Source of the DNA: a virus
DNA length: 64,000 nt
Strand: one strand, 5' to 3'
IMG/VR virus record: IMGVR_UViG_3300043774_000178
Coordinates: 1-64,000 of that record
A program made the translations under genes and the position numbers. Below, piece by piece: positions 1-28,336 of this stretch. The notes beneath the pieces were generated by a model that saw only the letters and a program-made list of their open reading frames with translations, was not told the DNA's origin and did no database searches. Positions within the stretch are counted from its first letter, which is position 1. Every line of letters begins with the position of its first letter.

Positions 1-1
1 C

Positions 2-1740: not shown

Positions 1741-2346
1741 ATGAAAACTAAAATGCAAAAAGGTGGTACTGCCAGAAATAAAAAAATGGAAAACCCACCT
1801 AAGCCTCCTATGAAGAAAGGAGGATCTGTTAGAAAAATGCAAGCAGGTGGGCAATCTGATAAACCTTATACTAGACCTAAAGAATTTCTACCTGAAAAAG
1901 GTCCTATAACGGATATGAAAGAAAGAAAAGATCTAGCAGACCTCTTGCTTAAATATAAAGCGGATCCTAGAGTTACTAGAGAAATAATGAGAACAGGCCA
2001 ACTTGCTCCTGATATAACACTAAAGACTAAACCTTCTTCTGAAATGCGTGTTGGTAAAACCATGAAAAAAGGTGGTGCTATGAAAAAAATGCAAAAAGGT
2101 GGATTACAAAAAGCAGCAACAAAAAGAAGAACAATTGAGAAGATGATGACAGGAGGTATGGTTAATCCTAACTCTTCTGTATCTGTACTAAAAGCTGCAG
2201 GTTCTAAAGGTGTTGCATCTGGAGTTAATCCAAAAGCTTCATCTTCTAAAGTAGCTGGTAGTAGAGGATCTGGTAAAGTAAACACTCCTCCTTCAAAAGC
2301 TGTACCTACTGCAAAGAGAGGAGGTATGGTTAAAAAGAAAAGATAA
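1741..2346 (+). CDS. Basic GG-motif protein (201 aa)
   Basis: This very basic, low-complexity protein is built around short motifs of a Met or Lys-rich run followed by Gly-Gly. At least seven are visible: MQKGG, MKKGG, MQAGG, MKKGG, MQKGG, MTGG and KRGG. A short ordered-looking segment (DMKERKDLADLLLKYKADP, about residues 58-76) separates the two motif-rich halves. It ends in KKKR. It starts 12 bases after the previous stop and is followed by another gene after 1 base. Six more small basic genes follow, making one cassette. I cannot assign a function. Nucleic-acid binding, capsid lining, or a set of processing or docking sites are the possibilities. Confidence 0.75.
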   Translation: MKTKMQKGGTARNKKMENPPKPPMKKGGSVRKMQAGGQSDKPYTRPKEFLPEKGPITDMKERKDLADLLLKYKADPRVTREIMRTGQLAPDITLKTKPSSEMRVGKTMKKGGAMKKMQKGGLQKAATKRRTIEKMMTGGMVNPNSSVSVLKAAGSKGVASGVNPKASSSKVAGSRGSGKVNTPPSKAVPTAKRGGMVKKKR

Positions 2347-2347
2347 T

Positions 2348-2674
2348 ATGAAAAGAATAATTAAATCTACAAAAGACTTCATGAGAATGACTAAGGTTGT
2401 TTCTCAGTACTATACAGTTAGAAACACAATTAAAAATTTTATATCTTCCCCTAAAGAAGAAGTAAAAGAAGAAGAAGTTCCTGCTGAGGTTGTGGTTGAA
2501 GAAACAATAGTTATAGAAGAACCTGTAGCCACTGAAGTAGAACAACCTGTGGAAGTTGTAGTAGAAAAGAAAGTATCAAAACCTAGAGCACCTAGAAAAA
2601 AGGTAGTAAAAGAAGTTACTGAAGAACCGGTAGCTAAGAAAGCTCCAAGGAAAAGAAAAAAGAAAGATGCCTAA
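2348..2674 (+). CDS. Small protein with acidic middle and histone-H1-like basic tail (108 aa)
   Basis: Residues 1-35 are basic and probably helical. Residues 36-75 are strongly acidic (EEVKEEEVPAEVVVEE and similar). The last 30 residues are Lys/Arg/Ala/Pro-rich (KKAPRKRKKK), like the tails of histone H1 or bacterial histone-like proteins. The gene starts 1 base after its upstream neighbour stops and overlaps the next gene by 8 bases, so the cassette is probably translated as a unit. The charge pattern suggests binding to DNA or to the basic neighbours, but no family is recognisable. Confidence 0.7.
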   Translation: MKRIIKSTKDFMRMTKVVSQYYTVRNTIKNFISSPKEEVKEEEVPAEVVVEETIVIEEPVATEVEQPVEVVVEKKVSKPRAPRKKVVKEVTEEPVAKKAPRKRKKKDA

Positions 2675-3005
2675 AGACGCGTGTTATCATAGTGTAAAAG
2701 CAAGGTATGCAGTATTCCCCTCAGCAAGAGCTTCTCAGGCTATTGCTAAGTGTAGGAAGAAATCTGGAACTGTTAGAAAAACAGAGAAAGGTACTGAGCT
2801 TAAAAGATGGCAAGCAGAAAAGTGGCAAGATACAAAATCAGGAAAACCTTGTGGGGCAGGTGGTAAAAATGAATACTGCCGCCCCACTAAAAGGGTTTCT
2901 AGTAAAACACCAAAAACCAAGTATGAACTAACTCCTTCTAAACTAGCTGCTAAGAAAGCTGAAAAGTCTAGAGTAGGTATGGGAAGAAGAGTTAAAAAAG
3001 TATAG
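2667..3005 (+). CDS. DUF5872-like small basic protein (112 aa)
   Basis: The N-terminus (ACYHSVKARYAVFPSARASQ, then AIAKCRKKSG) and the middle (WQDTKSGKPCG, then YCRPTKRVSSKTPKT) match what I recall of the DUF5872 family, short Cys-containing proteins seen in many large phages and in giant eukaryotic viruses. The regularly placed cysteines (C6, C29, and the GKPCG and YCRP cysteines) could bind a metal. The C-terminus is basic (GRRVKKV). The function of the family is unknown. It overlaps the previous gene and is followed after 2 bases by the next, within the basic cassette. The family name comes from memory and needs a profile search. Confidence 0.7.
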   Translation: MPKDACYHSVKARYAVFPSARASQAIAKCRKKSGTVRKTEKGTELKRWQAEKWQDTKSGKPCGAGGKNEYCRPTKRVSSKTPKTKYELTPSKLAAKKAEKSRVGMGRRVKKV

Positions 3006-3007
3006 TT

Positions 3008-3256
3008 ATGGCAGTGAGAAAAACAACAACAACAACTAGAAAAGCTCCAGCTAAGAAATCATCCTCTTCAGTTGGTATTTCTATTATGGGAGGTAGTAAA
3101 GCAGAAATGAGAAAGTGGGAAGTAGAATCTGCTATGTCTACATTAAAGAGAGCAGCAGAGATTCAGAAAAATGCTAAGCTCATGGCTGATGTAAAAAAGA
3201 TGGCTACTGAACAAGCAAGGATGTTTACCAATCTTGCTAATGGTAAAATGAAATAA
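3008..3256 (+). CDS. Small basic helical protein (82 aa)
   Basis: A Thr/Lys/Ser-rich, probably disordered N-terminus (residues 1-22) leads into a single long amphipathic helix (about residues 30-80, MRKWEVESAMSTLKRAAEI onward). One GG lies at the junction (IMGGSKAE). No family is recognised. It sits between the DUF5872-like and DUF6321-like genes with 2-base gaps, so it is almost certainly co-translated with them. Confidence 0.65.
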   Translation: MAVRKTTTTTRKAPAKKSSSSVGISIMGGSKAEMRKWEVESAMSTLKRAAEIQKNAKLMADVKKMATEQARMFTNLANGKMK

Positions 3257-3258
3257 TC

Positions 3259-3609
3259 ATGGCAAGTAGTAGAGCACAACAAGCAGCAATAGCTATCTCA
3301 ATGAAGAAAGCTGGTAAGAAACCTAAGATGGCTAAAGGTGGCTCTACACCTGCATGGACAAGAAAAGAAGGTAAGAATCCTACAGGTGGACTTAATGCTA
3401 AAGGAGTAGCAAGTTATAGAGCAGCTAATCCAGGTTCTAAATTACAGACTGCTGTAACTACTAAACCTTCTAAGCTTAAGCCTGGAAGTAAAGATGCTAA
3501 AAGACGTAAAAGCTTTTGTGCTAGAATGTCAGGTATGCCAGGACCTATGAAAGATGAAAAAGGAAGACCAACAAGAAAAGCTCTTTCATTAAGAAAGTGG
3601 AATTGTTAA
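3259..3609 (+). CDS. DUF6321-like small basic protein (116 aa)
   Basis: The segments TPAWTRKEGKNPTGGLNAKG, KRRKSFCARMSGM and the C-terminal SLRKWNC match the pattern I remember as DUF6321, found in aquatic phages and giant viruses. The conserved Trp, the SFCARM cysteine and the C-terminal WNC are all present, so the protein looks intact. A GG motif of the cassette type (MAKGGS) lies at about residues 25-28. The biochemical role is not known. The gene lies 2 bases after its neighbour, and a TATATAG-containing spacer follows it. Confidence 0.7.
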   Translation: MASSRAQQAAIAISMKKAGKKPKMAKGGSTPAWTRKEGKNPTGGLNAKGVASYRAANPGSKLQTAVTTKPSKLKPGSKDAKRRKSFCARMSGMPGPMKDEKGRPTRKALSLRKWNC

Positions 3610-3622
3610 TTTATATATAGTC

Positions 3623-4222
3623 ATGAAAAAATTAGGATGTGCTAAATGCGGGGGCTCCATGAAAAAAGGAGGACCTGTTAAGATGAAAAAGATGGCAGAG
3701 GGTGGTACTGCTAAAAGAAATATATCTAAACCAGGTGCTGGATTTGCAGCTGCTACTATAGGTAGTAATCAACCTGTAAATGTTTTTGGTATTCCTAATG
3801 CAGGTCAAACAGGACCTAATAGAAGAGTTACTACTGAGACTATGCAGAAAGGAGGAAACTTTGCACCAAACCGTGCAGTGCAATCCTCTTGCAGAAATGG
3901 TATGGTGAGAGATGAGAATGGTAGATGTGTTATGATGCGTACAATGCAGAAAGGAGGTGCATCACTACCTGACTTTAGTAAAGATGGTAAGATTACTCAG
4001 AAAGATGTTCTCATGGGTAGAGGAGTTATTCCTAAAGCTAAGAAAGGTGGTAACTGGATTCAAGGTGCAATTAAAAAACCTGGTGCTTTAAGAGAAGCTC
4101 TTGGAGTAAAAAAAGGTGAGACAATTCCTAAAGGTAAATTAAAAGCTGCTGCAGCAAAAGGAGGTAAGATTGGTCAAAGAGCAAGACTTGCTATCACACT
4201 TGGTAAAATGCGTAAAGGATAA
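3623..4222 (+). CDS. GG-motif protein with conserved WIQGAIKKPGALR module (199 aa)
   Basis: The N-terminal half repeats the cassette motif: CGGS, MKKGG, MAEGG, MQKGG twice, AKKGG. It also has CxxC (CAKC, residues 5-8) and a short Cys loop (SSCRNGMVRDENGRCVM). Residues about 148-199 (WIQGAIKKPGALREALGVKK, ending with RARLAITLGKM) form a compact module that I recall as a recurring tail on small basic virion-associated proteins in diverse phages and large viruses. The start ATG follows TATATAG by 2 bases. Its role is unknown. Context suggests a virion or packaged basic protein. Confidence 0.7.
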   Translation: MKKLGCAKCGGSMKKGGPVKMKKMAEGGTAKRNISKPGAGFAAATIGSNQPVNVFGIPNAGQTGPNRRVTTETMQKGGNFAPNRAVQSSCRNGMVRDENGRCVMMRTMQKGGASLPDFSKDGKITQKDVLMGRGVIPKAKKGGNWIQGAIKKPGALREALGVKKGETIPKGKLKAAAAKGGKIGQRARLAITLGKMRKG

Positions 4223-4226
4223 GATT

Positions 4227-4631
4227 ATGAAAAAGACAAATAAACCTAGTAATCCACTTAAAGTCTTTAATGATAATAGAGCTATGGCTTATAAAAAAGC
4301 TGGTGGTGCTATGAAAGATTTTAAGAAGTCTTTACCTAAAGCTCAGACTGGTAAATCTGTAAAACCCTTGACACTAAAGGATAAAGAAGGATATCAATGG
4401 AATATTGATACTACAGGTTATGCTAAAGGAGTGAAGAATTTTTATCCATACGAAAAACCATATCCTGGAGTTAAAGGTGTTTTGACCAAAGCCGAAATGG
4501 ATAAAGTAATGTCTAATGTTGGTAAAGCTGTAGGTACTGCAAAAGGTCCCGGAGCTTTGGCAAAAGCTGCTGCTAATGCTACTAAATCTAAAAAAGCTAA
4601 AGGAGGCTCAGTTAAATCTAGAAAGAAGTAA
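4227..4631 (+). CDS. Basic GG-motif protein (134 aa)
   Basis: I chose the ATG at 4227. A longer reading from a TTG at 4170 would overlap the conserved end of the upstream gene by more than 50 bases. The protein starts MKKTNKPSNP, has KKAGG and KAKGGS motifs at both ends, an Ala/Lys-rich helix near the C-terminus, and ends KSRKK. A central segment (YQWNIDTTGYAKGVKNFYPY) may be folded. No family is recognised. It is the last of the basic cassette and lies 3 bases before the probable ring protein gene. Confidence 0.65.
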   Translation: MKKTNKPSNPLKVFNDNRAMAYKKAGGAMKDFKKSLPKAQTGKSVKPLTLKDKEGYQWNIDTTGYAKGVKNFYPYEKPYPGVKGVLTKAEMDKVMSNVGKAVGTAKGPGALAKAAANATKSKKAKGGSVKSRKK

Positions 4632-4634
4632 CAA

Positions 4635-5333: not shown

Positions 5334-5338
5334 TAACA

Positions 5339-5857: not shown

Positions 5858-5924
5858 TTTGGAATTTTAAACAGGATTCCTTATATTATATAGTGTATAT
5901 ATTTATTAATTAAAACAAAAAACA
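5858..5924 (+). promoter_or_regulatory. Short hairpin and AT-rich promoter-like region before the 549-aa gene
   Basis: A 5-bp stem GGAAT/ATTCC (5861-5865 with 5876-5880) with a 10-nt loop containing AAACAGG is followed by TATATAG (5887-5893) and an A-rich leader to the ATG. The downstream gene has the codon use of a very highly expressed protein, so a strong promoter is expected here. Assignment of the elements is tentative. Confidence 0.35.
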
Positions 5925-7574: not shown

Positions 7575-7590
7575 TAAAACAACAACTTAA

Positions 7591-7635
7591 GAAAAGGGAG
7601 AGTGGGAGTTAATCTCTCCTCTCCTTTTCTTTTTT
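7591..7635 (+). terminator. Rho-independent terminator after the 549-aa gene
   Basis: GAAAAGGGAGAG pairs with CTCTCC...CCTTTTC, with a bulge, around a short loop, and is followed by six T residues (7630-7635). It uses the same A-rich, GGGAG-type stem as the other terminators in the window. Confidence 0.8.
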
Positions 7636-7647
7636 ATATTATTTCTT

Positions 7648-8190: not shown

Positions 8191-8196
8191 ACAAAT

Positions 8197-8432: not shown

Positions 8433-8433
8433 A

Positions 8434-11669: not shown

Positions 11670-11677
11670 CTAGTAAA

Positions 11678-12166: not shown

Positions 12167-12202
12167 AGATGTCGCAGTTTGTTGGTTTCTGTGACTAACA
12201 AA

Positions 12203-12289: not shown

Positions 12290-12871
12290 ATGCATAACAA
12301 GTATAATTTACCAGATGTTAAAGCCCCAAGATTTAGACAAAATGGTTTTGATGTTTTGACAAAAAAGTTCTTTGATAATTTTAGAAGTAAGTATCCTAAG
12401 CATAAGAATATAACAGATTCTGAAATTAGGAATATAGTAAAAAGGTTTAATGAGCTTATGTGGGAAAACATAATAGAATATAGAGATGGTGTTCAGTTTC
12501 CAGAAGGTATAGGTACACTCTTTATTGCAACATGTCAAAATGCAAAAAGTAAAAACATTGACCATGTAAAATCTAAGAAGTATGGAGTTAGTGTAAGTAA
12601 TACTAATTGGGAAACAGATGGTAAACTAGCTAAAATATTCTATACAAGTTATGCAAGTAAATACAAGTTTGAATACAGAGAATGTTGGGGATTCAGAGCT
12701 TGTAGAAATTTTAAAAGGGCAGTTGCAAAAACATACCCTGAAAACTGGACAATGTATGTTCAGGTTGACCCAGTTAAAAAACTTAGAAAACTTTATCTAA
12801 AAGATACTTCTAAACATTATTTTAGAAAGCTTGACAAGAACTTAGAAGGCTATAATGATTTTGAAATATGA
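12290..12871 (+). CDS. IHF/HU-like protein, crAss type (193 aa)
   Basis: Residues about 40-85 (ITDSEIRNIVKRFNELMWEN, then GVQFPEGIGTLFIATC) follow the HU/IHF pattern of two helices, then a short loop ending in a G-x-G-T-[LF] turn. crAss-like phages are described as carrying IHF-type subunits in this part of the map, and I assign it on that basis. The second half is basic and aromatic (ECWGFRACRNFKRAVAKT). Known IHF proteins bend DNA. A virion or packaging role here is inferred. The start ATG is preceded by a T-rich leader. The stop overlaps the next start (ATGA), giving translational coupling. Confidence 0.5.
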   Translation: MHNKYNLPDVKAPRFRQNGFDVLTKKFFDNFRSKYPKHKNITDSEIRNIVKRFNELMWENIIEYRDGVQFPEGIGTLFIATCQNAKSKNIDHVKSKKYGVSVSNTNWETDGKLAKIFYTSYASKYKFEYRECWGFRACRNFKRAVAKTYPENWTMYVQVDPVKKLRKLYLKDTSKHYFRKLDKNLEGYNDFEI

Positions 12872-14583: not shown

Positions 14584-17500
14584 ATGGCAAAGCAACAACA
14601 AGATCTAAGTCAAGATAAGAGTAACACTTTTATAAAGGGTCTAAACAAAGACTCTGATCCTTCTTTTGTACAAGAAGGAATGTGGACTCATGCGCGTAAT
14701 GCAACTAATAATACTTTTGAGGGAGACTTAGGTACATTATCAAATGAGTCATCAAATAAGTTCTGTGTACTTACAGCACCTACTGTAAATGGATCTGCTT
14801 ATATAATAGGTTCAGTACATCTTTATAGTGACAAGTGGATTTTATTTACTGCTATACACGGACCTGATCAAACTCTTCCATCAATTAATTCTGAAATAGG
14901 TTTGTTTGAAGAAGGTTTATGTAGATACAGACCTATTGTATTAGATCCTTGTTTAAACTTTAGCAAGTGGGATTTAATTACAGGAGCTGCTAGAGAGAAA
15001 GAAGATTGTACTTGGCAAGTATATTGGTCTGATGGATTAAACCCAGATAGATATCTAAATGTAGGTGATCCCCAAACATGGCCTACAGATAACTTTGTGT
15101 GGCAAGGTGATAACACTTATGCTAATCCAGCAGGAGATGTTATCCAGTGGCCTGGTGTAACATGGCAACAGATATGTACAGATTCATCAGGAGTATCTCA
15201 GACATCTCCAGGAGTGTGGCCTACAGGTCATCCAGTAGATGATTCATGTATAACTTGTGAGAATACAACAGATCTAGATTGTGATGCTTTAAGATTAGCT
15301 AGGCTAATGAAGACACCATGTATTCATGTATCTCCTGGTAAAGCAGGTGGTACATTACGTAATGGATCTTACATGGCTACTCTTGCTTATTCTATCAAGG
15401 GACAGAAAGTAACAGACTGGTTTTCATTAAGTAATGTACAACCAATATGGTTATTACCTGAACCCCAAGGTGCATTAGAGCTTGACATAGAAGCAGACAA
15501 TGATAACTTTGATGAGTTCATCTTAGTAATAGTTCAGAATATAAATCAAGGTGCTGTTGCAAAACAGATGGGTATCTATTCTACTAGTACTACTAAAGTT
15601 TATATAGATCAGATTAAAGAAGATTTAATCTCTGTACCAATTGGTCAGCTACCTATTCAGACTCCTGTGTTTGAGAAGTCTGATATAATGCTAGAAGTAA
15701 ATAACTATCTCTTAAGAGTAGGACCTACTTCAAGATTTGATTTTAACTATCAACCTCTAGCAAACCTAATAACAACTAACTGGGTATCTACAGAGTATCC
15801 TGCAAACTATTATACTCAAGGTGGATATAAACCTAGTTATCTAAGAGATGAAGTTTATGCTTTCTTTATTAGATGGATATACAATACAGGGGATAAATCT
15901 TCTGTATATCATATTCCAGGAAGAAAAGCTACAGATTATAGAATACCACAGACAGGACAGTTTTTATTTGAAAATGATGATTTAAATAACTTTGATTCAA
16001 TCTTTGCTCCGGAAAAAGTATTTGAAGTATATAATACTGCTACTGGATCCCCTGTTCCACCAGAAGTTCTTGATGATGGTGGAGTAATAATAGGTAGAGG
16101 TCCTATGGCATACTGGGAGTCATCAGAAAGATATCCTGACAATAAACCTGAAGTATGGAATGCATCAGAGCATTGTTGGACAGGTACACCACTTGATCCT
16201 AATACAGGATTGCCAATATCTGATCCAAGTTATGATTTATGCGGGCTACCAATTAGACATCATAAGTTTCCAGAAAATATTATATATAGTCCTAATGGTA
16301 TAGAACTTTCTATTACAAAACATTTTGCATCTTCTTTTGGAGTTAATGCTCAACCCAATAAAATAAGATTACTTGGTATAGAGTTTAATAATATTATTAT
16401 TCCAAAAGATAATCAAGGTAATGACATTCCTGGAATAGTAGGTTATGAAATTCTAAGAGGTTCAAGAGAAGGTAACAAGTCTATCATTGCAAAAGGAATG
16501 GTAAACAACTTAAGACCATATGATCTTAAAGTAGACCAGATTAACCCACAGCAACCATTAAAAGGATTGTATCCTAACCATCCATTTAATACTATTAGAA
16601 CTCTTAATCCTGATAATGCAATTAACGGTCCTTTAAATCCTAACTCAACAACTGGTATAAATGATCCTTACATAAAAGGTACAGATGAGAATGATGTTGA
16701 GATTAATTATACTATTGATGATATGCCTAAAAATATCATCACATTCCATTCACCAGATACAAACTTTAGAACACCTTTCTTATCAGCAACAGAATTAAAA
16801 GTTTATGGATACCTAAGAGGTAATTCTGAACAATTCTTTATTGAACCTAATGAACAACCTCAACAGAAAATACTTAAGAATATAATAGTAACTACAATGT
16901 TCTTAGGAGGTATTGTAGAAGGTTTGATTAGCTTACTTGGTAAAAGAACTATTAATTCTCCTAAAGGTGGATTCCAAAGTTTCTTTGAACTTCCAACTGC
17001 ACAAGGAACATCAGTAGGTCCTCCTTATATAGGAGTAAAAATATTTCCAAGACCGACTCAATTAGCACTAGCAAATAATACATTAAATACATATAATGCA
17101 GCGTTAAATACTTATTTTGCATCAGGTGGAGGTTCATTTGCAGATGCCTTTGCTCAAGGTATAACACTAAGTACGGGTACTAACACATTTACAAATACAA
17201 TGCTAGCTAGGGGTGGATATAAAGAAGCAGCTTCAGTATCTACAGAAGTTGGACCAGGAGGTATTCTTGGAATAGCAGGTGCAGTAGGTAACTTCTTATA
17301 CTACTTTTCAGAAGGAGCTGATCTTACACTTAGAACTATATATGCATTAGTGCCATATAGGCAATATGCTTTACAAATGTTAGGTCATGGTTTCTATAGA
17401 AGGTTTTTTGCTCATGATTTAAATCAAAGAAGAAGATTTAAAATAGAAGAAAGTTTTTACTTAAGAGATACTATTCAAGAACTTCCTCCTTATGTAAATG

Positions 17501-20031
17501 GTGCAGTAGTCGAGAAGTATAGAGTAAATAATCTTAAAAGACAAAACTCTGTTATTGTAAGAACTACAAATAATGTTAACCAGAATGATGGACCTCATTT
17601 TATTTTAAATCAAGGTAGTGTAGATAATAGTTTAGTTACTATAGGAACAGCAAGAGGTAACTTAGGTGAAGTTGGATTTTCTCAAAGAGATAAAATAAAA
17701 CCATTTAATGCTACAATTTCAAGTCACTATGCTGGATTAAAACTTAGAATAGTAAATCAGTATGGTCAACTTGATTCAATAAAACAAATACCTGTAACAC
17801 CTTGTGAGCAAAAGTTATCTGTCAGACCTTCTGGAGATAATTACCCTGCACCTAATAACACAGGTATACAGTGTTCATATGAGAATCTTGATGGGTCCTC
17901 AACATCTTATATACTTCAACAAAAGAAAATTGCTAAGACACCTGTATTCTTTGGAGGAGATACTTATATAAGTAGATACACAGAAAAGAATGTAATGCTC
18001 TTTTTCTATGATTGGTTATATGGACAACCAGATGGATTTGAATTTAATTACTTTACTAGACAGTTAATACCTGAACCAAGATTCTGGATTAACTCTGAGA
18101 AATATGATATTGGTAATCTTGCACCTAGCAGTGGTAACTGGTCTTTAAACGCACCAACATTAGGTACAGGACTTTTACCAAGTGCTTACTATAGACTTGA
18201 TAATGATGACTATAATTATTTCATAGATCAAAATGTACCTACAGGTTTACCAGAAGTACGATTCTCAGAAAAGGATGCATACTTCTATTTAGCTACTTGT
18301 GTAGTAAGAGACTTCTTTGTAGAGAGTGATATCATAGTTGATTTTAGAATAGATGGGTTAGAGCCATTCCAAAAGTCTTACAACCCTTATACCTATACTG
18401 ATCTACAAACAATGTTTAATATAAACCCTGATACAATAGAGAGGGGTAACTATTACGCATATGATTACTCACTAGCAATATCAAAACTATTTACTCAGTA
18501 TTTCTCACAGGGTAATTTACAATCTAGATACTATGACCCAGAAGTATCCAAGTTATGTTATACTTATTATCCTGATAGAATAATATACTCTTTACCTCAA
18601 CAAGATGAATCAGCAAAAGACTCTTGGTTTGTATATCTTGTAAATAACTATAAAGAGTTTAAAGATCAGATCTCTGGAGTAAAGAACTTTGCTAAGACTG
18701 GTATCTTTATTACATTCAAGAATTCTAGTCCTCTAGCATTCCAAGGAGTAGATCAGTTACAAACAGACTTTGGTACAAAGATTACTATAGGTGATGGAGG
18801 ATTGTTTGCTCAAACACCACAGAGTGTAGTAATTGCAGATAAACCTTTTGAGTACGGATCTTCTCAAGATTCTAGAAGTGTTATTTCTACTCCTGCAGGA
18901 CTTTACTATGTATCTCAGAACCAGGGTAAGATATTTGCTTATGCACAAGGTTTAACAGAGATATCTCAGTCAGGTATGAAGTGGTGGTTTAATAACTTCT
19001 TACCATTTAAACTACTAGAAGATTTCCCTGAGTATCCTCACATAGATAATCCGGTAGCAGGTATTGGTTGTCAATCAAGTTATGATAATGAAAACTCAGT
19101 ATTGTACTTTACTAAGAAAGACTACAAGCTGAGAGATGATATGAAGGGTACATTGTCTTATGACAGAAGACAAAATAAATTCTTTACTATAAACTCTTTA
19201 GGACAAGTAACAAAGACTTCTGTAGATCTTGGTAACCCATTATACTTTGAAGATGCCTCTTGGACAGTTAGTTATGATCCAAAAACTAAGTTCTGGATTT
19301 CATTCCATGACTGGCATCCAAGTCTTTTTATACCTACTAAGAATACATTCTGTACCACGGTATTTAATCAAGTGTGGAAACACAATGCTAACTGTGATGA
19401 CTTCTGTAACTTCTATGGAGTTAATTACCCATTTGAGATTGAGTTCCCATTCATAACTGGTCAGACTGTTACTACAACAAGATCAATGGAGTATATCTTA
19501 GAGTGCTATAGAAGAGCAAGATATAATTGTGTTGATCAGTTCCATGTATTAGATTATAACTTTGATAAAGCTGTAGTGTTTAATTCTGAACAAGTATCAG
19601 GATACCTTAATCTAAATCTATTCCCTAAAAACAATGTCACACTTAGCCTTGACTATCCACAAGTAAACTTGAACAGTATTGATATACTATTCTCTAAAGA
19701 AGAAAATAAATATAGATTCAATCAGTTTTGGGATATAACAAAAGACAGAGGTGAATTTCCAGTTGGTTCAGACTATCCTCCAACAGGTCCTGTAATTCCA
19801 GGATCAACTATTCTAGATGGTCCATATGAAGAACAGAACATTTGGATAACAGCACCTAATGGGTATAGTAAAATACTAAATCCTAATAATCTTGATTATC
19901 AAAAACCTGAGCTACAAAGAAAAAGATTCAGACACTATCTTAACTTCTTAAACTTAAGTAAGACAGTATCGGGTGAAACAAACATGATTGTTAAGATAAT
20001 GAATGTTAAGAACACATATTCACCAAGGTAA
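14584..20031 (+). CDS. Tail stabilisation (muzzle-like) protein, crAss type (1815 aa)
   Basis: The opening (SNTFIKGLNKDSDPSFVQEG, then MWTHARNATNNTFEGDLGTL) is the typical start of P22-like stabilisation proteins in crAss-like phages, beta-propeller-rich proteins that form the short tail's distal body. At 1815 aa it is longer than the P22 type and in the range expected for crAss-like phages. It is beta-rich and aromatic throughout, with a hydrophobic stretch at about residues 765-785 and a Gly/Ala-rich region at about 890-905 (GPGGILGIAGAVGNFLYYF). The end (FLNLSKTVSGETNMIVKIMN) is a beta closure. The stop overlaps the next start (TAATG). Confidence 0.75.
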   Translation: MAKQQQDLSQDKSNTFIKGLNKDSDPSFVQEGMWTHARNATNNTFEGDLGTLSNESSNKFCVLTAPTVNGSAYIIGSVHLYSDKWILFTAIHGPDQTLPSINSEIGLFEEGLCRYRPIVLDPCLNFSKWDLITGAAREKEDCTWQVYWSDGLNPDRYLNVGDPQTWPTDNFVWQGDNTYANPAGDVIQWPGVTWQQICTDSSGVSQTSPGVWPTGHPVDDSCITCENTTDLDCDALRLARLMKTPCIHVSPGKAGGTLRNGSYMATLAYSIKGQKVTDWFSLSNVQPIWLLPEPQGALELDIEADNDNFDEFILVIVQNINQGAVAKQMGIYSTSTTKVYIDQIKEDLISVPIGQLPIQTPVFEKSDIMLEVNNYLLRVGPTSRFDFNYQPLANLITTNWVSTEYPANYYTQGGYKPSYLRDEVYAFFIRWIYNTGDKSSVYHIPGRKATDYRIPQTGQFLFENDDLNNFDSIFAPEKVFEVYNTATGSPVPPEVLDDGGVIIGRGPMAYWESSERYPDNKPEVWNASEHCWTGTPLDPNTGLPISDPSYDLCGLPIRHHKFPENIIYSPNGIELSITKHFASSFGVNAQPNKIRLLGIEFNNIIIPKDNQGNDIPGIVGYEILRGSREGNKSIIAKGMVNNLRPYDLKVDQINPQQPLKGLYPNHPFNTIRTLNPDNAINGPLNPNSTTGINDPYIKGTDENDVEINYTIDDMPKNIITFHSPDTNFRTPFLSATELKVYGYLRGNSEQFFIEPNEQPQQKILKNIIVTTMFLGGIVEGLISLLGKRTINSPKGGFQSFFELPTAQGTSVGPPYIGVKIFPRPTQLALANNTLNTYNAALNTYFASGGGSFADAFAQGITLSTGTNTFTNTMLARGGYKEAASVSTEVGPGGILGIAGAVGNFLYYFSEGADLTLRTIYALVPYRQYALQMLGHGFYRRFFAHDLNQRRRFKIEESFYLRDTIQELPPYVNGAVVEKYRVNNLKRQNSVIVRTTNNVNQNDGPHFILNQGSVDNSLVTIGTARGNLGEVGFSQRDKIKPFNATISSHYAGLKLRIVNQYGQLDSIKQIPVTPCEQKLSVRPSGDNYPAPNNTGIQCSYENLDGSSTSYILQQKKIAKTPVFFGGDTYISRYTEKNVMLFFYDWLYGQPDGFEFNYFTRQLIPEPRFWINSEKYDIGNLAPSSGNWSLNAPTLGTGLLPSAYYRLDNDDYNYFIDQNVPTGLPEVRFSEKDAYFYLATCVVRDFFVESDIIVDFRIDGLEPFQKSYNPYTYTDLQTMFNINPDTIERGNYYAYDYSLAISKLFTQYFSQGNLQSRYYDPEVSKLCYTYYPDRIIYSLPQQDESAKDSWFVYLVNNYKEFKDQISGVKNFAKTGIFITFKNSSPLAFQGVDQLQTDFGTKITIGDGGLFAQTPQSVVIADKPFEYGSSQDSRSVISTPAGLYYVSQNQGKIFAYAQGLTEISQSGMKWWFNNFLPFKLLEDFPEYPHIDNPVAGIGCQSSYDNENSVLYFTKKDYKLRDDMKGTLSYDRRQNKFFTINSLGQVTKTSVDLGNPLYFEDASWTVSYDPKTKFWISFHDWHPSLFIPTKNTFCTTVFNQVWKHNANCDDFCNFYGVNYPFEIEFPFITGQTVTTTRSMEYILECYRRARYNCVDQFHVLDYNFDKAVVFNSEQVSGYLNLNLFPKNNVTLSLDYPQVNLNSIDILFSKEENKYRFNQFWDITKDRGEFPVGSDYPPTGPVIPGSTILDGPYEEQNIWITAPNGYSKILNPNNLDYQKPELQRKRFRHYLNFLNLSKTVSGETNMIVKIMNVKNTYSPR

Positions 20032-21005
20032 TGGGATTCAATAAGAAAGAACTTTCTAAAGCTACAGCAAACTTAGATGCAAGAAAAGCTCAAAGTAAAC
20101 CTAGAGATATAATCTATGACCCAGCAGGTCAGTGGAAACATCCTGGACAACCTACTAGAATTCCAGGAGGTAATATTACTATGCAAGGTGTACCTTATCC
20201 AGTGATGGCTTATCCTAATGTAGGACAACCACAGATGATGTACCCAGAGCAAGATTATAACTTTGCAGGAGCAGATTATGTAGATGAGTATCCTCAAATG
20301 AAAAGAGGAGGGTCTAAGAAGTTCTCTAGAGATATAAGAGCAACTAATGTACTCTTTACAAAGAATCCATATCTAAAAAAGAAAAAGTCAAAGAAGAAAA
20401 AAATCTTTGATCCTAATGCTGCATATTATAAAAACGGTGGTGACTTTAGTGATGATATAAATAAACGCAGACAAGTTTTACGTGACTGGACTTATGGTAA
20501 ATCTATAGGTATGTTACAAGAACAAGATGGTGGGGAACTTCCTGCAGACTACCAAGAATTTATAAATTATTCAGAAACAGCTCCAGAGAATAGAAGACCT
20601 GCTCCAAATGCTGTATATGGTGATCCAAATGATTATGATCATTATGGTATGTGGGAAGCATTGGGTAAACCTAAGAACTTTGAAGAAGCTCTTCAAATGA
20701 ATCCTGATTGGACACCAGATGAGTATGATGGTATGTATCACGGATTTAGTGTTAATCCTAACACAGGAGTATTTCTTAAAGCAGGTAAACCAGGGTTTAA
20801 AGAAGGTGATACAACATGGATGGAAGTAGCTGGTCATTATCTTAGTCCAAGAGCACAAGTAGACACACCTGTATTTGACATAGACTTACAAAGATTTAGA
20901 TATATACCAAATGAAAATCAAGAAGAGTATATAGAAACAGAACTTACTCCAGAAGAAATAGAAGTATACAGACAAGGTGGGTATATAGTAGAAGAATTAG
21001 ATTAA
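20031..21005 (+). CDS. GG-motif virion/cargo-type protein (324 aa)
   Basis: Residues 90-130 hold a basic segment conserved in style among crAss-like phages (MKRGGSKKFSRDIRATNVLF, then KKKKSKKKKIFDPNAAYYKN). Five GG motifs are present: IPGGN, KRGGS, KNGGD, QDGGE and RQGGY. Residues about 195-265 (NDYDHYGMWEALGKPKNF, then YDGMYHGFSVNP) resemble the Tyr-Asp/Trp/His module of many phage internal virion proteins. The C-terminus is acidic. It is the last gene of the tight operon from 12290. It ends within a hairpin element that is shared with 28334. I infer a tail-lumen or capsid cargo protein. Confidence 0.6.
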   Translation: MGFNKKELSKATANLDARKAQSKPRDIIYDPAGQWKHPGQPTRIPGGNITMQGVPYPVMAYPNVGQPQMMYPEQDYNFAGADYVDEYPQMKRGGSKKFSRDIRATNVLFTKNPYLKKKKSKKKKIFDPNAAYYKNGGDFSDDINKRRQVLRDWTYGKSIGMLQEQDGGELPADYQEFINYSETAPENRRPAPNAVYGDPNDYDHYGMWEALGKPKNFEEALQMNPDWTPDEYDGMYHGFSVNPNTGVFLKAGKPGFKEGDTTWMEVAGHYLSPRAQVDTPVFDIDLQRFRYIPNENQEEYIETELTPEEIEVYRQGGYIVEELD

Positions 21006-21064: not shown

Positions 21065-24000
21065 ATGAAAAAAAGAGTTAGACTTTATAAAGCTCAAATG
21101 GGAGGGTATAATGCTGGGCAACAAGTACAACAGCAGCAACAAGCTCCTACAGAACAACAGTTGTATGATTATGTATTAGCTTCTTTGGGAGATGGAAAAG
21201 AGGCTGAACAAATACATGCTGAGTTAGTCCAGTCTGGTATTCCAGAAGAGATGTCTAAAAAGGTTATTGAAGATAGTGTAACTTATCTTGAAGAACAACA
21301 AGCTGATGAAGAAGCTGCTCAAACTCCTAATGATGAAGATAGTCAGAAAAGACTAGAAGCAGAAGAAATGGAGATGAGAAGAAGACAAGAAGATGACGAA
21401 GCAGACAGACAATATAATCAGCAGTTACAAGAAATGTATTCTGATTATAATGAGCATGACTACTCGGATGATGATGCTATAGCTTCTGATATCACAATGA
21501 GATATGGTGGTAAAGTACCTTCTAAAAGAACCTTTGTAAAAAATGTAATGAAGCTTACAAAGAAGCAATTAGGAGGAGAAGAAACTAAAGACAAAAATAC
21601 AGCAGACGGTACTGATACAGGACAGAGACAAAATATCCTAAAGTCATTTATAGGTAATGTACAAGGTACAGCTAATAATGCTTTGATGAAGGAAGATGCT
21701 GAGATGATGTACAATCAGTATTTTCAAAATGGTGGTGATACAGAATCAGGAATAATGGATTTTGATCCTTACCATAATCTAGCTCACTACAGTGATACCT
21801 TTGAGCATGCTATGCCAGTAGATCAAACTAGTATGATGAAAGCTCAAGATGGTGGTCTCACTCCTGGTCAAACTAGAAGAATGGAAAGAAGAACTAATAG
21901 GATGATTAGAAACATTCCTGTTGGTTATGGTGGTTATGGTGCAGGATTATTTCCACAAGGAATTAATATTCTAAACATAGCACAACCTCAAATGATGGCA
22001 GCATCTAATGCTAACCCTTTATCTAACTACATGAGTGGTGTAAAAATGGCCAACATAGATGTTAGAAGAGTAGGTTTATTTGGTAGACCAAAAGAGTACA
22101 CAATAAACTTTGCAAATGATGTAGCTAATAATCCTCAACTCCAAAAAGAATTAATGGAGCAGGAAGCTAGAAATACAAGACAGACTGTTAAAGATATAAC
22201 TGATGCTGGATATACAACAACTGTAACAGACTCAGGCATTAAAGGTAGTTCAAGTTCTGTACCTACAGAAGGTCAAGCTACAGACTTCTTTAAGAAAGAT
22301 GATAATAAAAATAATATTCCTGACTATCTAGAAGTAACAGGAGCATCTAGTACAACACCAGGAGGAGTAGCTTCAAGTACAACACCGGGAGCAGGTGGAA
22401 CTTCTTCAGGTGTAGGAGGTGGTGGTTCGCGTTCAGGTTCAGGATCTGGTTCAGGAAGTAGCAGTCAAGAATCTAACTTAGGTGTAGATGAATCAGGAGA
22501 AGAACTTGTAGTAGATGAAACTACTGGAGTAGTGGTACCAGTATCTATGAGTGCTCAAGCTTTACAATATGCTAATAGAAATATAGGTGAAAACAGTTTT
22601 AAAAATAATTTAATAGAAAAGTACGCTCATGGAATGTTTCCGACAACAGGATTAAGTAAGTTAACTCTTGATGATAAAAAAGGATATTATTATGTTCCTA
22701 ATTCTTATGGTACTATAGAAAAGTATAAAGGTGACCCTAAAGATTATACCCAATTTTCAAAGCCTGTTGAAATTATACAAGATCAAGGTAGAATTAACTA
22801 TATTATAAATAAAGGTACAATATATAAAAAACCTTCTTCTAAGGCTCCAAGTAAACCAAATGCTAATAAAACATTATATGGTGATAAAGCAGTTTCTTCT
22901 AATGCTAGTGTAGCTGCTCTAAATAAAGTTACTGCCCCAACAAAAGCTAGCACCCCTGTAAAAACTTATACAAAGAATGGAGTAAAAGTTCAGGTATATA
23001 ATAAGTATTCTACAGATGCTGAAACAGGAGAAAAGTATCCTATTAAGATTGTTAAAAGATTTGACACTAAAGGTAAACTTCTTCCATCTAGTTATGTAGA
23101 ATTTACTCCTTATGCTGATTATAAACCAGTTCAAGTATCTTACAGTCAGTACTTTAGAAAAAAACAAGAAGGTGGTGTAATATCTAATCCTTTTGAAGAC
23201 CCATATGGTAATCTACAAAAGTTTATCTATGGTGGAGGAGATGATATATCTATTCCACAAGTAGCAGGTAAACTAACTGATGATGCATACTTTGCATATG
23301 GTGGATTAACTAGCTATCAAGATGGAGCAAATGTAACAGCAGGAGCAGAACCTAAAACAGGTCAGACAAAAGCTGAGTGGGAAAAATCTTCTGGTTACGG
23401 TTCTACAGGTGAAGGTAGTGATTTAGTTTGGAATGGAAAGTCTTGGGTAAAAGCAGGTGACTATAAACCTGCAGAAACTAAAAGTAAAGAAAGTACAACA
23501 AGTAATAAAACTACCACAACTACTACAACTTCAAATCCTAGAACTACTAATACACAAGTTATAGGTAACTATGGAGCTCCAATCTATCCACCATTATTTG
23601 GAGGCAGAGGGTTACGTGGTATATTAGGAGCAACAGCTTTATCAGCTAATCCTTTTATTCAGTATGCTGGATCATGGACTCAACAAAGAGGTCAAGCATT
23701 TGATCCTGCAACAGGTAAACCTATTGATATTACAGGAATGGAGAATACTCCACTTTCTAGAATTAAAATAGATAAAGTAGGATTGCTTTCTGGTAGACCA
23801 AAAAAGTATACAATGTATTTTGGTGAACCAGTTGAAGAGGGTACTTCATCAACTGGTGCTGCAGCAGCAACTAGTCAAGAAACAAGAGATGAAAAAGGTA
23901 AAAGAAAAATGGCTCCTGGGTTAGAGAAAGCTCTTTTAAAAATACCTGGTATGTCTAGAGTTCTTTATCCTTATGGTGATGAAGAAGAAGCAGCAGCTGC

Positions 24001-26080
24001 TGTGACTACTCCTGCTACACCAACACCTGTAGATGAGAATGATGAACTTGCAGGGCTATACTGGGGGCATCCTACATTAAATACTTATGCTGCTGATAAA
24101 GCAAAATTAACAAGTAAAGAAGGACCTCTTAGCATGCCTATTAGACCTTCTTCTGGAATGACTATACCTACATCATTAGGAGATCAAGAATTAGCTGGAG
24201 ATTATACTAGTAATGAAATACCAGTATTACCACTAAGACCTCCTGGAGAAGTGATGGGTACAGATAGACAACAGGCTCTTGCTTTACAACAGTATATGCA
24301 AAGTCCTGGAGCAAGAGAATCTCTTATGCAGTTTATTCCTGAAGAGGAACAAATGCAAATGATGGAAGCTAATCCTCAATTAGCATTTGGACAAAATATG
24401 TCTGGACCAATAAATACGGAGATGATGCCAGAGTTATCTTCTGAAGAACAAGATGCAGAATACTTAGCTCAAAGAGATTTAGAGATTGCACAGAATCCTA
24501 TGCTTAATCCAAATGTGAGAGCTATGTATGAGTCTTTAGGACAAGATATTCCACAAGGAATGACTCCACAAGAAGCATTAGGTTATGAGACTGGTGAAAT
24601 ATACCCGGGTATGGAATATAACCCTGATGAGTTTACTAACTATGATATACAAGGTTTACCAGCTCCTTTAATCTCTGAAGCAAATTTAGCTGGACAAGAT
24701 GCAGGTAGAGCTTTAACAAATATTGCTGATGAAGCTGAGAGAAGAAGACTAGAGATACAAAGACAAAAATTAGCAGCATTACAAAGACAAAGAGCTCTTC
24801 AACAACAAAATCAAAAACCTGTTGCAAATTCTTCCTCTAGTAAAGTAAGAAAAGTTAAAGACTTGACTTTCAAACAAGGAACAGATAATGTCAAATTGTA
24901 TGACATGCAGGAAAAGTTATACAATCAGTATGATAAATATGGAGCAACCAATCATGTTCAATTAGTTAAAGATGCTAAATCTAGAATTAATAAACAGTAT
25001 GGTTCTGAGATGTTGAAACATTGGAGTAATATGGATCCGTCTAGAAGACTTAAATGGATTAACTCTCAACCTAAAAATTTTAGAAATGACTTTATATTAC
25101 TGAGTACTCTTAAAGCAGGAGGACAATTACCTAAAGCTCAAATAGGTATGGGTAATGTATACACAACTAATCCTGACATGATAGGATTAAGTGATATAGA
25201 TCTTGTATCTTCACAAACAGCTCCTATAGCTAACATGCCAGGAAGTATGAGTACTTGGTCAGATCAAATGCCAACTAGGTTTAATCAACAGAAAGATCCT
25301 ACTATGCTTTCTCTTGATCCTGGTCAAATGAATAGACAAACTCAGAAGAAGCAGTTTGATTTAAGTTTCCAACCAGGGCAAGGTGTTGACTTTGCAACAG
25401 GTGAGTTTCCTGAGATTAATGAGGGTACTAATGATTTCTCATTCCAACCTGGAGAACCACTTGACTTTAATCAAGTATTAGAAGATGTAGGAGGTCCTAA
25501 TGAACCAGCTGCTGATGCAACAGCAAATAAGAAAAAAGGTTTTGCTGCAAAGTTCAAAGACAAAAACATGTATAACATTGATCCTAGAATGGGATTAAAC
25601 CTCTTTAACAAGTTTGCTAACATGGGTCTTCAAGGTTTGGAAAACAGAGAAGCTAGAAAACAAGAAAAAGAAAACTACAAACAACTCATAGGTGATAACC
25701 TGTATGGTTCTACTAATATTATGAGTAGAGGTACATACAATGTAAACTCAGGTTTACTAGATGAAAGTACTATGGGTTCTGTAGGTGTAGTTAAGTATGG
25801 TGGTAATGTATATCAAGATGGTGGTTATATAATAGATGAGGAATCTGCATATGAAGTAACACCGATGACTAATAACTGGATGGATGGTAGCACACTTCAG
25901 AATACTTATCTAAATCAAAACTCTATGAATGCATCACCAGAGTATCTTAACTCTATGATTTCTCAAGGTGTAGTGGATGAGGAGGAAGATCAAGAATATG
26001 CAGAAGGTGGAGAAACCTGGATGTCTGAAGATCAAATAAATAGATTTTTGGCAGAAGGTGGAGAACTAGAATTTATTTAA
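21065..26080 (+). CDS. Large GG-motif cargo-type protein with internal duplication (1671 aa)
   Basis: A low-complexity, probably extended protein with Gln/Glu-rich, Gly/Ser-rich and Thr-rich stretches. At least a dozen motifs end in Gly-Gly at intervals (AQMGG, MRYGG, KQLGG, YQNGGD, KAQDGG, KQEGG, LKAGG, VKYGG, YQDGG, AEGGE). A module appears twice: residues about 293-350, with VGLFGRPKEYTINF, and about 836-925, with VGLLSGRPKKYTMYF. No catalytic site is visible. The position between tail and RNA polymerase genes suggests an internal virion protein. It starts with a basic KKRVRLYKAQ and ends in GGELEFI. Confidence 0.6.
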   Translation: MKKRVRLYKAQMGGYNAGQQVQQQQQAPTEQQLYDYVLASLGDGKEAEQIHAELVQSGIPEEMSKKVIEDSVTYLEEQQADEEAAQTPNDEDSQKRLEAEEMEMRRRQEDDEADRQYNQQLQEMYSDYNEHDYSDDDAIASDITMRYGGKVPSKRTFVKNVMKLTKKQLGGEETKDKNTADGTDTGQRQNILKSFIGNVQGTANNALMKEDAEMMYNQYFQNGGDTESGIMDFDPYHNLAHYSDTFEHAMPVDQTSMMKAQDGGLTPGQTRRMERRTNRMIRNIPVGYGGYGAGLFPQGINILNIAQPQMMAASNANPLSNYMSGVKMANIDVRRVGLFGRPKEYTINFANDVANNPQLQKELMEQEARNTRQTVKDITDAGYTTTVTDSGIKGSSSSVPTEGQATDFFKKDDNKNNIPDYLEVTGASSTTPGGVASSTTPGAGGTSSGVGGGGSRSGSGSGSGSSSQESNLGVDESGEELVVDETTGVVVPVSMSAQALQYANRNIGENSFKNNLIEKYAHGMFPTTGLSKLTLDDKKGYYYVPNSYGTIEKYKGDPKDYTQFSKPVEIIQDQGRINYIINKGTIYKKPSSKAPSKPNANKTLYGDKAVSSNASVAALNKVTAPTKASTPVKTYTKNGVKVQVYNKYSTDAETGEKYPIKIVKRFDTKGKLLPSSYVEFTPYADYKPVQVSYSQYFRKKQEGGVISNPFEDPYGNLQKFIYGGGDDISIPQVAGKLTDDAYFAYGGLTSYQDGANVTAGAEPKTGQTKAEWEKSSGYGSTGEGSDLVWNGKSWVKAGDYKPAETKSKESTTSNKTTTTTTTSNPRTTNTQVIGNYGAPIYPPLFGGRGLRGILGATALSANPFIQYAGSWTQQRGQAFDPATGKPIDITGMENTPLSRIKIDKVGLLSGRPKKYTMYFGEPVEEGTSSTGAAAATSQETRDEKGKRKMAPGLEKALLKIPGMSRVLYPYGDEEEAAAAVTTPATPTPVDENDELAGLYWGHPTLNTYAADKAKLTSKEGPLSMPIRPSSGMTIPTSLGDQELAGDYTSNEIPVLPLRPPGEVMGTDRQQALALQQYMQSPGARESLMQFIPEEEQMQMMEANPQLAFGQNMSGPINTEMMPELSSEEQDAEYLAQRDLEIAQNPMLNPNVRAMYESLGQDIPQGMTPQEALGYETGEIYPGMEYNPDEFTNYDIQGLPAPLISEANLAGQDAGRALTNIADEAERRRLEIQRQKLAALQRQRALQQQNQKPVANSSSSKVRKVKDLTFKQGTDNVKLYDMQEKLYNQYDKYGATNHVQLVKDAKSRINKQYGSEMLKHWSNMDPSRRLKWINSQPKNFRNDFILLSTLKAGGQLPKAQIGMGNVYTTNPDMIGLSDIDLVSSQTAPIANMPGSMSTWSDQMPTRFNQQKDPTMLSLDPGQMNRQTQKKQFDLSFQPGQGVDFATGEFPEINEGTNDFSFQPGEPLDFNQVLEDVGGPNEPAADATANKKKGFAAKFKDKNMYNIDPRMGLNLFNKFANMGLQGLENREARKQEKENYKQLIGDNLYGSTNIMSRGTYNVNSGLLDESTMGSVGVVKYGGNVYQDGGYIIDEESAYEVTPMTNNWMDGSTLQNTYLNQNSMNASPEYLNSMISQGVVDEEEDQEYAEGGETWMSEDQINRFLAEGGELEFI

Positions 26081-26089
26081 CAATACGTT

Positions 26090-28336
26090 ATGTATAGAGT
26101 AAAAATAAAAAGATTACCTCAAGCTAGATTTGGTAGAGGTGTAAAGACAGGTCAGCAAATGGATGGTGCACTAGCTATCCAACCTACAGCAATGGGTGGA
26201 GCTGATATTGATCAATACATAGGAGAGAAGCCTTTAAAGACAGTTAATACATTAAGTGCTGTTCCAAGAGAAGAAGCTAACCTAGAAGCAGAAGGAGGTG
26301 AGACTGCATACGGAGATCTCAATGGAGATGGTATGGCAGAACACGCTAAGATTGTAGGACCAAGACATCACAGTGGAGGTGTACCTTTAAATCTTCCTGA
26401 TGATACTTTTATCTATAGTGACACAAGTTCAATGAAGATAAAAGATCCTAAGATACTATCTATGTTTGGTAAAGCTACTGCTAAAGGTAAAAAGTCAAAA
26501 GGATTTACTCCAGCAGAACTAGCTAAGCAGTATGACTTAAATAAGTATAGAAAGATTCTTCAAGATCCTAACTCTGATAAGATTGATAAGAAGACAGCAG
26601 AGTTAATGATTCAAAACTACACTATGAAGCTTGGAGCTTTAGCATTAGCTCAAGAGTCTAAGAAAGGTTTCCCACAAGGTATACCTGTAGTAGCACAACC
26701 TTATATGGATGCTAATAAGATATCTGAACAAGATATCATGCCTACATATAAGTCTGTATCTCAAGGTGGTCAACAACAACAAGCTGATCAGATGTATGAG
26801 CAGGAGCAAGAAGGTATGCCAACAGAAATGCCTAATGGAGAACCTATTGCTATGTCACCAGAGATGCAAGGTCAGGAACAACCTATGCCTCCTATGGAAT
26901 CAATGCCTCCTATGGCTCAGTATGGTATGATGATGGGTGGATATGATATGCCTTACTATCCTGAGATGGCTTACGGTGGTATCCCAAGATTTAATGATGG
27001 AGGACGAAAAATGACTACAGCAGAACTTCAAGCAAAAGCAAAAAAAGATGCTGCAAAAAAAGTAAAAGAAGTCCCTGCAGGTTATGAAAATATAGGTGGA
27101 GGTTATTATGCTACGGGCACTATTAATCAACAAGAAGTAGAAAGTGGATTAGGTACAGCTAAACCTGGTTCAGGAGGTGGAGGTAGAAGTGTTGGATATG
27201 AAAGAACAATGTGTGATGAGTTGAGAAGAGGAGTTACCCCTGAACAATTAGCTGCAAAAGGACATGGTACCGCTGCTGGTTTAAAAAATAGGTTTAAAGA
27301 TTGTTATGAAGAAGGAAAAGCTAAGCTTCAACAAGGGTCAGAAAATATTGATGTATTACAACTAGAAGAACCAACTGATACACCATGTAATCCTTGTCCA
27401 GACGGAAGTGTTCCTCCAAGAACTCCTGATGGCAAGTGTCCATGTGAAGAAAAGAAATGTAATGCATGTCCTGATGGTACAGTACCTGAGATGACAGCTG
27501 ATGGTAAATGTCCTTGTGGTGAGACAACAGAAACTACAGAAACTACAGATACTGTTACACCTCCTCAACCTACTATGACAGCAGCAGGATGGACAGCACC
27601 TGATATTAGAAACTACTATGGAGCATTTAAAGATAAGTATTCATTAAACCGTTACTATCCTTGGGCAGCAAGAGCAGATCTAGAAGAACCTACAAATATT
27701 CTTTATGATCCAACAAGAGAGTTAGCTCAACAATCTGAGCAGACTAATATTCTTACACAGGGTCTAGGACAGTTTGCGGGACCACAAGCATTATCTGCCA
27801 GAGCATCTCAGATACAAGGTAATGCTGCACAGCAAGCTGCAGATACCCTATCTAGATATAATAATCTAAATGTAGGTTTAGAAAATCAGTTTGCATTAAC
27901 TCAGAACCAGATTAGAAATCAAGAGAAGATGCTTAATCAGGCAACAGCAAAAGAGTTGTATGATAAAACTATGATGACTAAACAGCAGTATGATAATGCT
28001 AAGAGACAAGCTGATGCAAATGTAAGGCAATCATTTGCTACAGGATGGAAGAATGCTTCTGATATTGCTATGCTTAATTCAATGCAGGAGCAGTATAAAG
28101 TAGACCCATACTCAGGTACAGTATTCCATACAGGAGTAGGTAAAACACCAACAACTGATAAACCTAGTATGTCTCCAACAGAATATTGGAACTCTCCTGA
28201 ACTTAGAGGATTAACAGATAAAGCTAAAGAAACTTTAGTAGCTAAAAAGTTTAGTACTGGTAAGTATGGAGGTAACATGAAAGATGGTGGTATATATGTA
28301 ATGGGTTCTAATGTATTCCCATTCATGTTTTACTAA
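26090..28336 (+). CDS. Conserved crAss-type cargo/structural protein (748 aa)
   Basis: The N-terminal 210 residues are the recognisable part: VPREEANLEAEGGETAYGD, then GPRHHSGGVPLNLPDDTF, and IKDPKILSMFGKATAKGKKS. I recall this block as strongly conserved among crAss-like and other Bacteroidota phages. D76-x-N-x-D80-G resembles a calcium loop. Residues about 433-480 hold two copies of a Cys module (CNPCPDGSVPPRTPDGKCPC and CNACPDGTVPEMTADGKCPC). The C-terminal third is helical and Gln-rich, ending with KDGGIYVMGS. GG motifs recur as in its neighbours. It probably works as an ejected or packaged virion protein. Confidence 0.65.
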   Translation: MYRVKIKRLPQARFGRGVKTGQQMDGALAIQPTAMGGADIDQYIGEKPLKTVNTLSAVPREEANLEAEGGETAYGDLNGDGMAEHAKIVGPRHHSGGVPLNLPDDTFIYSDTSSMKIKDPKILSMFGKATAKGKKSKGFTPAELAKQYDLNKYRKILQDPNSDKIDKKTAELMIQNYTMKLGALALAQESKKGFPQGIPVVAQPYMDANKISEQDIMPTYKSVSQGGQQQQADQMYEQEQEGMPTEMPNGEPIAMSPEMQGQEQPMPPMESMPPMAQYGMMMGGYDMPYYPEMAYGGIPRFNDGGRKMTTAELQAKAKKDAAKKVKEVPAGYENIGGGYYATGTINQQEVESGLGTAKPGSGGGGRSVGYERTMCDELRRGVTPEQLAAKGHGTAAGLKNRFKDCYEEGKAKLQQGSENIDVLQLEEPTDTPCNPCPDGSVPPRTPDGKCPCEEKKCNACPDGTVPEMTADGKCPCGETTETTETTDTVTPPQPTMTAAGWTAPDIRNYYGAFKDKYSLNRYYPWAARADLEEPTNILYDPTRELAQQSEQTNILTQGLGQFAGPQALSARASQIQGNAAQQAADTLSRYNNLNVGLENQFALTQNQIRNQEKMLNQATAKELYDKTMMTKQQYDNAKRQADANVRQSFATGWKNASDIAMLNSMQEQYKVDPYSGTVFHTGVGKTPTTDKPSMSPTEYWNSPELRGLTDKAKETLVAKKFSTGKYGGNMKDGGIYVMGSNVFPFMFY

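Follow-up and report, generated by a model that had tools for sequence, protein, structure and literature searches.

Proteins encoded in two blocks of a crAss-like phage genome share a short element, Phi-x-x-G-G (PhixxGG), in which Phi is M, F, Y, L, I or W at position -3 from the first glycine of a Gly-Gly pair. The window in which it was found, the whole stretch of DNA analysed here, comprises positions 1-64,000 of the virus record IMGVR_UViG_3300043774_000178 (114,090 bases in full). What is enriched in these proteins is this position-specific motif, rather than Gly-Gly as such, and its carriers are probably packed inside the phage head. We tentatively propose, at a likelihood that falls a little short of even, that the element is a sorting or junction signal of proteins carried inside the head. 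No description of the motif was found in the open-access literature.

An earlier note on this DNA had drawn attention to Gly-Gly pairs, and its approximate counts are correct: there are 7, 7, 22, 14 and 5 in the proteins of 201, 199, 1671, 748 and 324 residues (hereafter GG201, GG199, GG1671, GG748 and GG324). Against composition shuffles, however, the excess of bare Gly-Gly is mild or absent (2.5 expected, p=0.006; 5.6, p=0.32; 14.5, p=0.03; 7.4, p=0.009; and 2.4, p=0.07, respectively), and it was dropped as a criterion. Nor are the pairs themselves limited to two blocks of genes, as the note had it, for the muzzle protein (11 pairs), a 4076-residue protein (12) and a 549-residue protein (10) contain as many, all at their own chance level. 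When [MFYLIW]xxGG was counted instead, both enrichment and restriction to the two blocks held: there were six sites in GG201 (0.34 expected, p=5e-5), four in GG199 (0.80, p=0.005), three in GG324 (0.53, p=0.013), eight in GG1671 (2.9, p=0.006) and, marginally, four in GG748 (1.4, p=0.048), while per-protein shuffles revealed no excess in any other window protein. The seven block proteins together contain 26 such sites, with about 6 expected. The Gly-Gly series as a whole is a mixture of PhixxGG joints, a C-terminal tag, N-terminal leaders, a conserved domain of GG748 and plain GGGG runs.

The hydrophobic residue, moreover, occupies one particular offset. When every Gly-Gly was kept in place and all other residues were shuffled within 40-residue blocks, Phi at -3 occurred 11 times against 3.0 in the small basic proteins (z=5.0) and 14 times against 8.2 in the large proteins (z=2.5). 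In the cargo of relatives it occurred 55 times against 31 (z=5.1) and was depleted at -2 (z=-3.8), kinship among the phages being left uncorrected in both figures. Position -2 prefers K, Q, A or R. No comparable -3/-2 pattern was seen in the remaining virion proteins of these phages under the same shuffles, and no single protein of T7, P-SSP7, HTVC010P, HMO-2011, phi14:2 or Fpv1 had an excess of the motif. The gp040 protein of the cultured crAss-like Cellulophaga phage phi4:1 contains 6 copies, with 1.2 expected. A DNA-repeat artefact was ruled out, since synonymous codons differ from copy to copy.

The phage is crAss-like by Pfam, with CrAss_Ring_2 at 12868-13542, CrAss_Ring_1 at 13542-14582 and the muzzle (PF25731) at 14584-20031, and its upstream genes encode TerL, the portal, a scaffold-like protein and the major capsid protein. 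The capsid gene spans the ends of the record, part of it lying in window positions 1-622; because this gene and the gene order join across the record ends, the genome looks circular and complete. The small basic cluster (1741-4631), which contains DUF5872 and DUF6321, comes after the capsid gene and that of a conserved 338-residue protein. The genes for GG324, GG1671 and GG748 come after the muzzle, and in crAss001 the genes past the muzzle encode the virion cargo proteins C1 and C2 and RNA polymerase subunits, crAss001 having space for ~5.5 MDa of cargo (PMC10172136). The motif does not exceed chance in the ring, fibre and muzzle proteins but does so in the cargo and in the basic cluster by the capsid gene, which argues for a head-cargo signal.

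To collect relatives, viral contigs were scanned with the DUF6321 protein as query, which yielded 80 loci. A muzzle query also worked, and none were found with the 1671-residue protein, by megablast or by tblastn of the 748- and 971-residue proteins. With module regular expressions picked by eye, PhixxGG was seen to sit at the joints between DUF6321, an EF-hand/dockerin-like loop (FPDLTGDGKVTRADVLKGRGV), NWIxGAI, DUF6496 (PF20106) and short C-terminal trailers, and the modules that it parts also occur alone. Among 52 DUF6321 proteins, which come from few phage groups, the N-terminal flank of the module is PhixxGG within two residues in 23 (0.7 expected when positions in these proteins are drawn at random) and strict [LI]xE in 8 (0.26 expected; 11 against 0.48 for a looser form), while 11 modules begin directly with a Met of their own; no protein belongs to both the PhixxGG and the LxE set. 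When an EF/DUF6496 protein served as query in a second scan, repeat contigs being excluded, 9 of the 15 EF modules followed PhixxGG and the other 6 followed PhixxG-S/T, and the motif is therefore better written Phi-x-x-G-[G/S/T]. Gly-Gly preceded 15 of 49 DUF6496 modules, most others starting at their own Met. The leader-GG-module layout of the window DUF6321 protein recurs in four relatives (L021, L022, L027, L034), and one leader stands ahead of different modules within single phages (L075, L077, L084, L091, L092, L036). Besides crAss-like phages, the groups that use PhixxGG include at least two more, whose portal and capsid families are different. An element that can stand apart as a leader, and whose joint is taken in other phages by the T4-type element, again points to a head-cargo signal.

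The large post-muzzle proteins carry terminal elements as well. N-terminal leaders front GG1671 and GG748 and, as MKIRIIGLPKAQIGM, are found in Leptolyngbya phage Lbo-JY46. The C-terminal tag, [LM][TS]xEE[IV]xxPhixxxG[YG]xPhiE, ends 3-4 residues short of the stop codon in GG324 and GG1671 and recurs in unrelated post-muzzle neighbours of relatives, its second Gly alternating with Tyr; the pattern has 18 matches in 2589 open reading frames and 1 in shuffles, and is possibly a separate cargo tag. It is also present in a 674-residue protein of Lbo-JY46. GG748 lies after the muzzle, among the cargo genes, in agreement with the position of C1 in crAss001, and has an HxxGG...SD signature that, by eye, is shared with proteins at the C1 position in other crAss-like phages. 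Its profile comparison with C1 (gp45) is not significant (hhalign probability 0.1%), so that homology is not established. GG748 is predicted to be mostly without stable structure (AlphaFold mean pLDDT 37), a low-confidence model that lends weak support to disorder.

If Phi-x-x-G-[G/S/T] is a sorting signal, it would end N-terminal leaders, link small basic modules into chains and recur in the large cargo proteins that are ejected and whose genes lie past the muzzle. It would be recognised during head assembly by the scaffold, the portal or the capsid interior, and such recognition would gather otherwise unrelated proteins into the particle, as the T4 capsid-targeting propeptide does. It should be stressed, however, that several observations weigh against this proposal. 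Close relatives (L026, L030, L037, L093) carry DUF6321 without a leader (MAKT-AAW...), indicating that the signal is dispensable in cis in these phages; the leaders vary in sequence from one phage group to another; and many copies of the motif lie mid-chain. No receptor for the motif was identified, and the crAss001 cargo protein C1 has no excess of the Phi form. The DUF6321 counts overstate independence, because few phage groups contribute to them. Finally, the virion location of the small basic proteins, inside the head, is something that we infer, as are the receptor and targeting itself.

The closest known parallel is that of T4, whose protease gp21 cleaves on the C-terminal side of L/I-x-E and in which ten N-terminal residues, those of IPIII, are enough to send a protein into the head (PMC9026906). 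As with the T4 internal proteins, a short element directly precedes small basic modules, head-internal in T4 and putatively so here, one leader fronts unrelated proteins, and T4-type phages use the same DUF6321 module with [LI]xE. The sequence, however, is PhixxG[G/S/T], not LxE, the copies are often many, and a gp21-family protease was not found in this genome. Since the LxE and gp21 tests fail, PhixxGG, which resembles the T4 propeptide in its place and use, is best viewed as a putative functional analogue of it and not as a member of that system. The phiKZ-type head proteolysis of SPN3US resembles what we describe in that many packaged proteins carry short motifs, some of them several (PMC10052503, PMC9026906), but that motif ends in Glu and is cut by a known protease. 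Adenain sites, (M/I/L)xGG↓x and (M/I/L)xGx↓G (PMC4246237), also combine a hydrophobic residue with Gly-Gly in small basic virion core proteins. Adenain, however, needs its hydrophobic residue at -2 from the pair, where Phi is here depleted, and this offset rules out an adenain/C48/PLpro-type specificity. PLpro sites and double-glycine (C39) leaders have the hydrophobic residue at -2, and a C39 leader is single, N-terminal and ends in GG; a leader of this kind was excluded by Phi at -3 and the many internal copies. The C1 and cargo zone of crAss001 is similar in having GG-rich proteins encoded directly past the muzzle, but differs in that the Phi(-3) form is not enriched in gp45.

The earlier note had suggested maturation cleavage. 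In the form considered here, a phage, cargo or host protease would cut within or after PhixxG-G, freeing leaders and splitting chains in the head much as gp21 does at [LI]xE. We consider this rather unlikely, although a good deal fits it. T4-type relatives have [LI]xE at the very same joint, and two long LxE contigs, L031 and L053, encode Peptidase_S77 (6e-34 and 4e-36); orthologues that lack a leader start at the point expected of a cut product; the motif parts modules with an existence of their own; its second glycine position tolerates the small residues G, S and T; and T4 and the giant phages cut at very short motifs, long propeptides several times (PMC9026906, PMC10052503). The search for an enzyme is less favourable. 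In the complete-looking 114-kb genome there was no Pfam match for S78 or ClpP, whose positive controls matched, nor for S77 or C48, models that lacked a positive control there (S77 did match L031 and L053). S77 and S78 were likewise absent from the contigs of L020 (107 kb) and L098 (71 kb), and the head-gene blocks of the other PhixxGG groups showed no recognisable protease. In crAss001 C1 the INEGG at 447 falls within a resolved domain (425-552) and N-terminal peptides remain in virions (PMC10172136), while cutting GG201 at all of its sites would give several 9-residue pieces. Docking, which the note had offered as an alternative, or sorting fits the data about as well as cleavage does. A further claim, unlikely in our judgement, is that Phi-x-x-G↓[G/S/T] would serve as the code for both targeting and cutting in a second head-maturation system, hitherto undescribed and equipped with an unrecognised protease of its own. 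Instead of T4 gp21/LxE, crAss-like and other tailed phages would use this system to package chains of small basic modules and to process them.

The note's other alternative was that the Gly pairs are flexible hinges in disordered, low-complexity proteins, with no partner and no cutting. The weak enrichment of bare Gly-Gly, the plain GGGG runs that make up part of the series and the predicted disorder of GG748 are all consistent with it. A plain linker is nevertheless disfavoured because Phi is fixed at -3 and depleted at -2, features that, like the sharing of leaders, no linker needs, and we regard it as distinctly improbable. Even less probable, to the point of being very unlikely, is that Met/Lys/Tyr-GG repeats neutralise packaged DNA or condense with acidic cargo. 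The small proteins are strongly basic and some relatives contain dense repeats, such as KKMMYGGDMKKKKMMYGGKMDKK in L072, but the Phi(-3) signal is also found beside acidic residues in large cargo (YAEGGE, LAEGGE) and at single joints ahead of conserved modules.

The relatives in which LxE takes the place of PhixxGG are of T4 type: five loci (L028, L031, L038, L048, L071) jointly encode terminase (TerL), head-closure, sheath-stabiliser and baseplate proteins. No Peptidase_S77 match was obtained in the LxE contigs of L045 (57 kb) and L071 (71 kb), and a survey of 39 further contigs for S77 says little because most are fragments; most of the other LxE contigs are likewise short. T4-type myovirus loci (L028, L029, L031, L038, L046) encode chains of ~390-640 residues built from the same small modules, namely DUF5872, CWxGYxxxGMKKKxGKxxPNC and DUF6321, with some joints of [LI]xE type; these chains look like polyprotein-style internal proteins.

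In other Pfam scans of the phage the only finds were an amidase/glucosaminidase, zincin-like motifs and, away from the virion genes, a metallopeptidase of DUF2201 type. The DUF2201-type protein (L002:1544-2842), which has a HELLH metallopeptidase motif and a VWA-like domain, is encoded in the replication part of the genome beside an ATPase-like gene. The two HExxH sites that the note reported are present, with 0.08 expected in the window proteome, and their zincin-like domains are plausible peptidases as judged from sequence; nothing was found that ties either domain to the Gly-Gly sites. The 338-residue protein (p338; 712-1728), encoded directly after the capsid gene, is 60-84% identical in relatives. 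Tested as a hidden protease, it gave a model with a pLDDT of 60 whose best PDB matches were weak, non-significant RecA fragments, and the idea was dropped.

The coordinates of the features are collected in Table 1. GG153, a further member of the basic cluster, has no excess of the Phi form in shuffles. The EF-hand/dockerin-like loop of the kind seen in GG199 follows PhixxG[G/S/T] directly in many phages, and L084 gives a weak Dockerin_1 match. In a 922-residue protein (L091:2-2770) the twin-arginine-like LKDGGGPKISRRGFLGFLAGAASAPFVGK lies mid-protein, straight after a PhixxGG site.

Table 1. Gly-Gly-bearing proteins, their sites and associated features in the window.
Feature	Position	Strand	Basis or remark
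GG201, small basic protein	1741..2346	+	6 PhixxGG, 0.34 expected
GG201 PhixxGG sites	1753-1767, 1810-1824, 1837-1851, 2062-2076, 2089-2103, 2143-2157	+	codons differ between copies
GG201 additional site AKRGG	2311-2325	+	
DUF5872 small basic protein, without PhixxGG	2667..3005	+	PF19197, 4.7e-13
DUF6321 protein: leader MASSRAQQAAIAISMKKAGKKPKMAKGG, then ST-PAW... DUF6321 module	3259..3609	+	PF19846, 1.1e-24
MAKGG in leader of DUF6321 protein	3328-3342	+	
GG199, chain of modules	3623..4222	+	modules and joints compared with relatives
GG199 joints PhixxGG / AKKGG	3659-3673, 3692-3706, 3842-3856, 3944-3958, 4037-4051	+	
GG199 EF-hand/dockerin-like loop PDFSKDGKITQKD	3968-4006	+	
GG199 NWIQGAI module	after 4051	+	
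GG153, small basic protein with KKAGG, LPKAQTG, KAKGG	4170..4631	+	
GG324, first protein past muzzle; MKRGG, YKNGG, YRQGG	20031..21005	+	
GG324 C-terminal tag LTPEEIEVYRQGGYIVEELD	20943-21002	+	
GG1671, eight PhixxGG sites	21065..26080	+	
GG1671 leader MKKRVRLYKAQMGG	21065-21106	+	common to relatives
GG1671 C-terminal tag MSEDQINRFLAEGGELEFI	26021-26077	+	common to relatives
GG748, at cargo C1 (crAss001 gp45) position	26090..28336	+	homologues L005, L006, L007
GG748 leader MYRVKIKRLPQARFGRG	26090-26140	+	
GG748 conserved domain with GPRHHSGGVPL	26261-26704	+	
HExxH (HEAWH), zincin-like domain of 4076-residue protein	41088..41102	+	context ...IYHEAWHAFSQLYL...EEELAEDF
HExxH (HEYAH), zincin-like domain of 1953-residue protein	51291..51305	+	context ...ILHEYAHPFIQAL...

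With a short signal common to unrelated phages and modules, the packaged and ejected proteome could be predicted from sequence; the signal would bear on how head proteins are selected in crAss-like phages and in many environmental tailed phages. It would also provide a handle for loading reporter proteins into these phages, and a definite starting point for finding a cargo receptor or a new viral protease. DUF6321, DUF5872 and DUF6496 thereby gain a context, as candidate head-internal modules common to T4-type and other phages.

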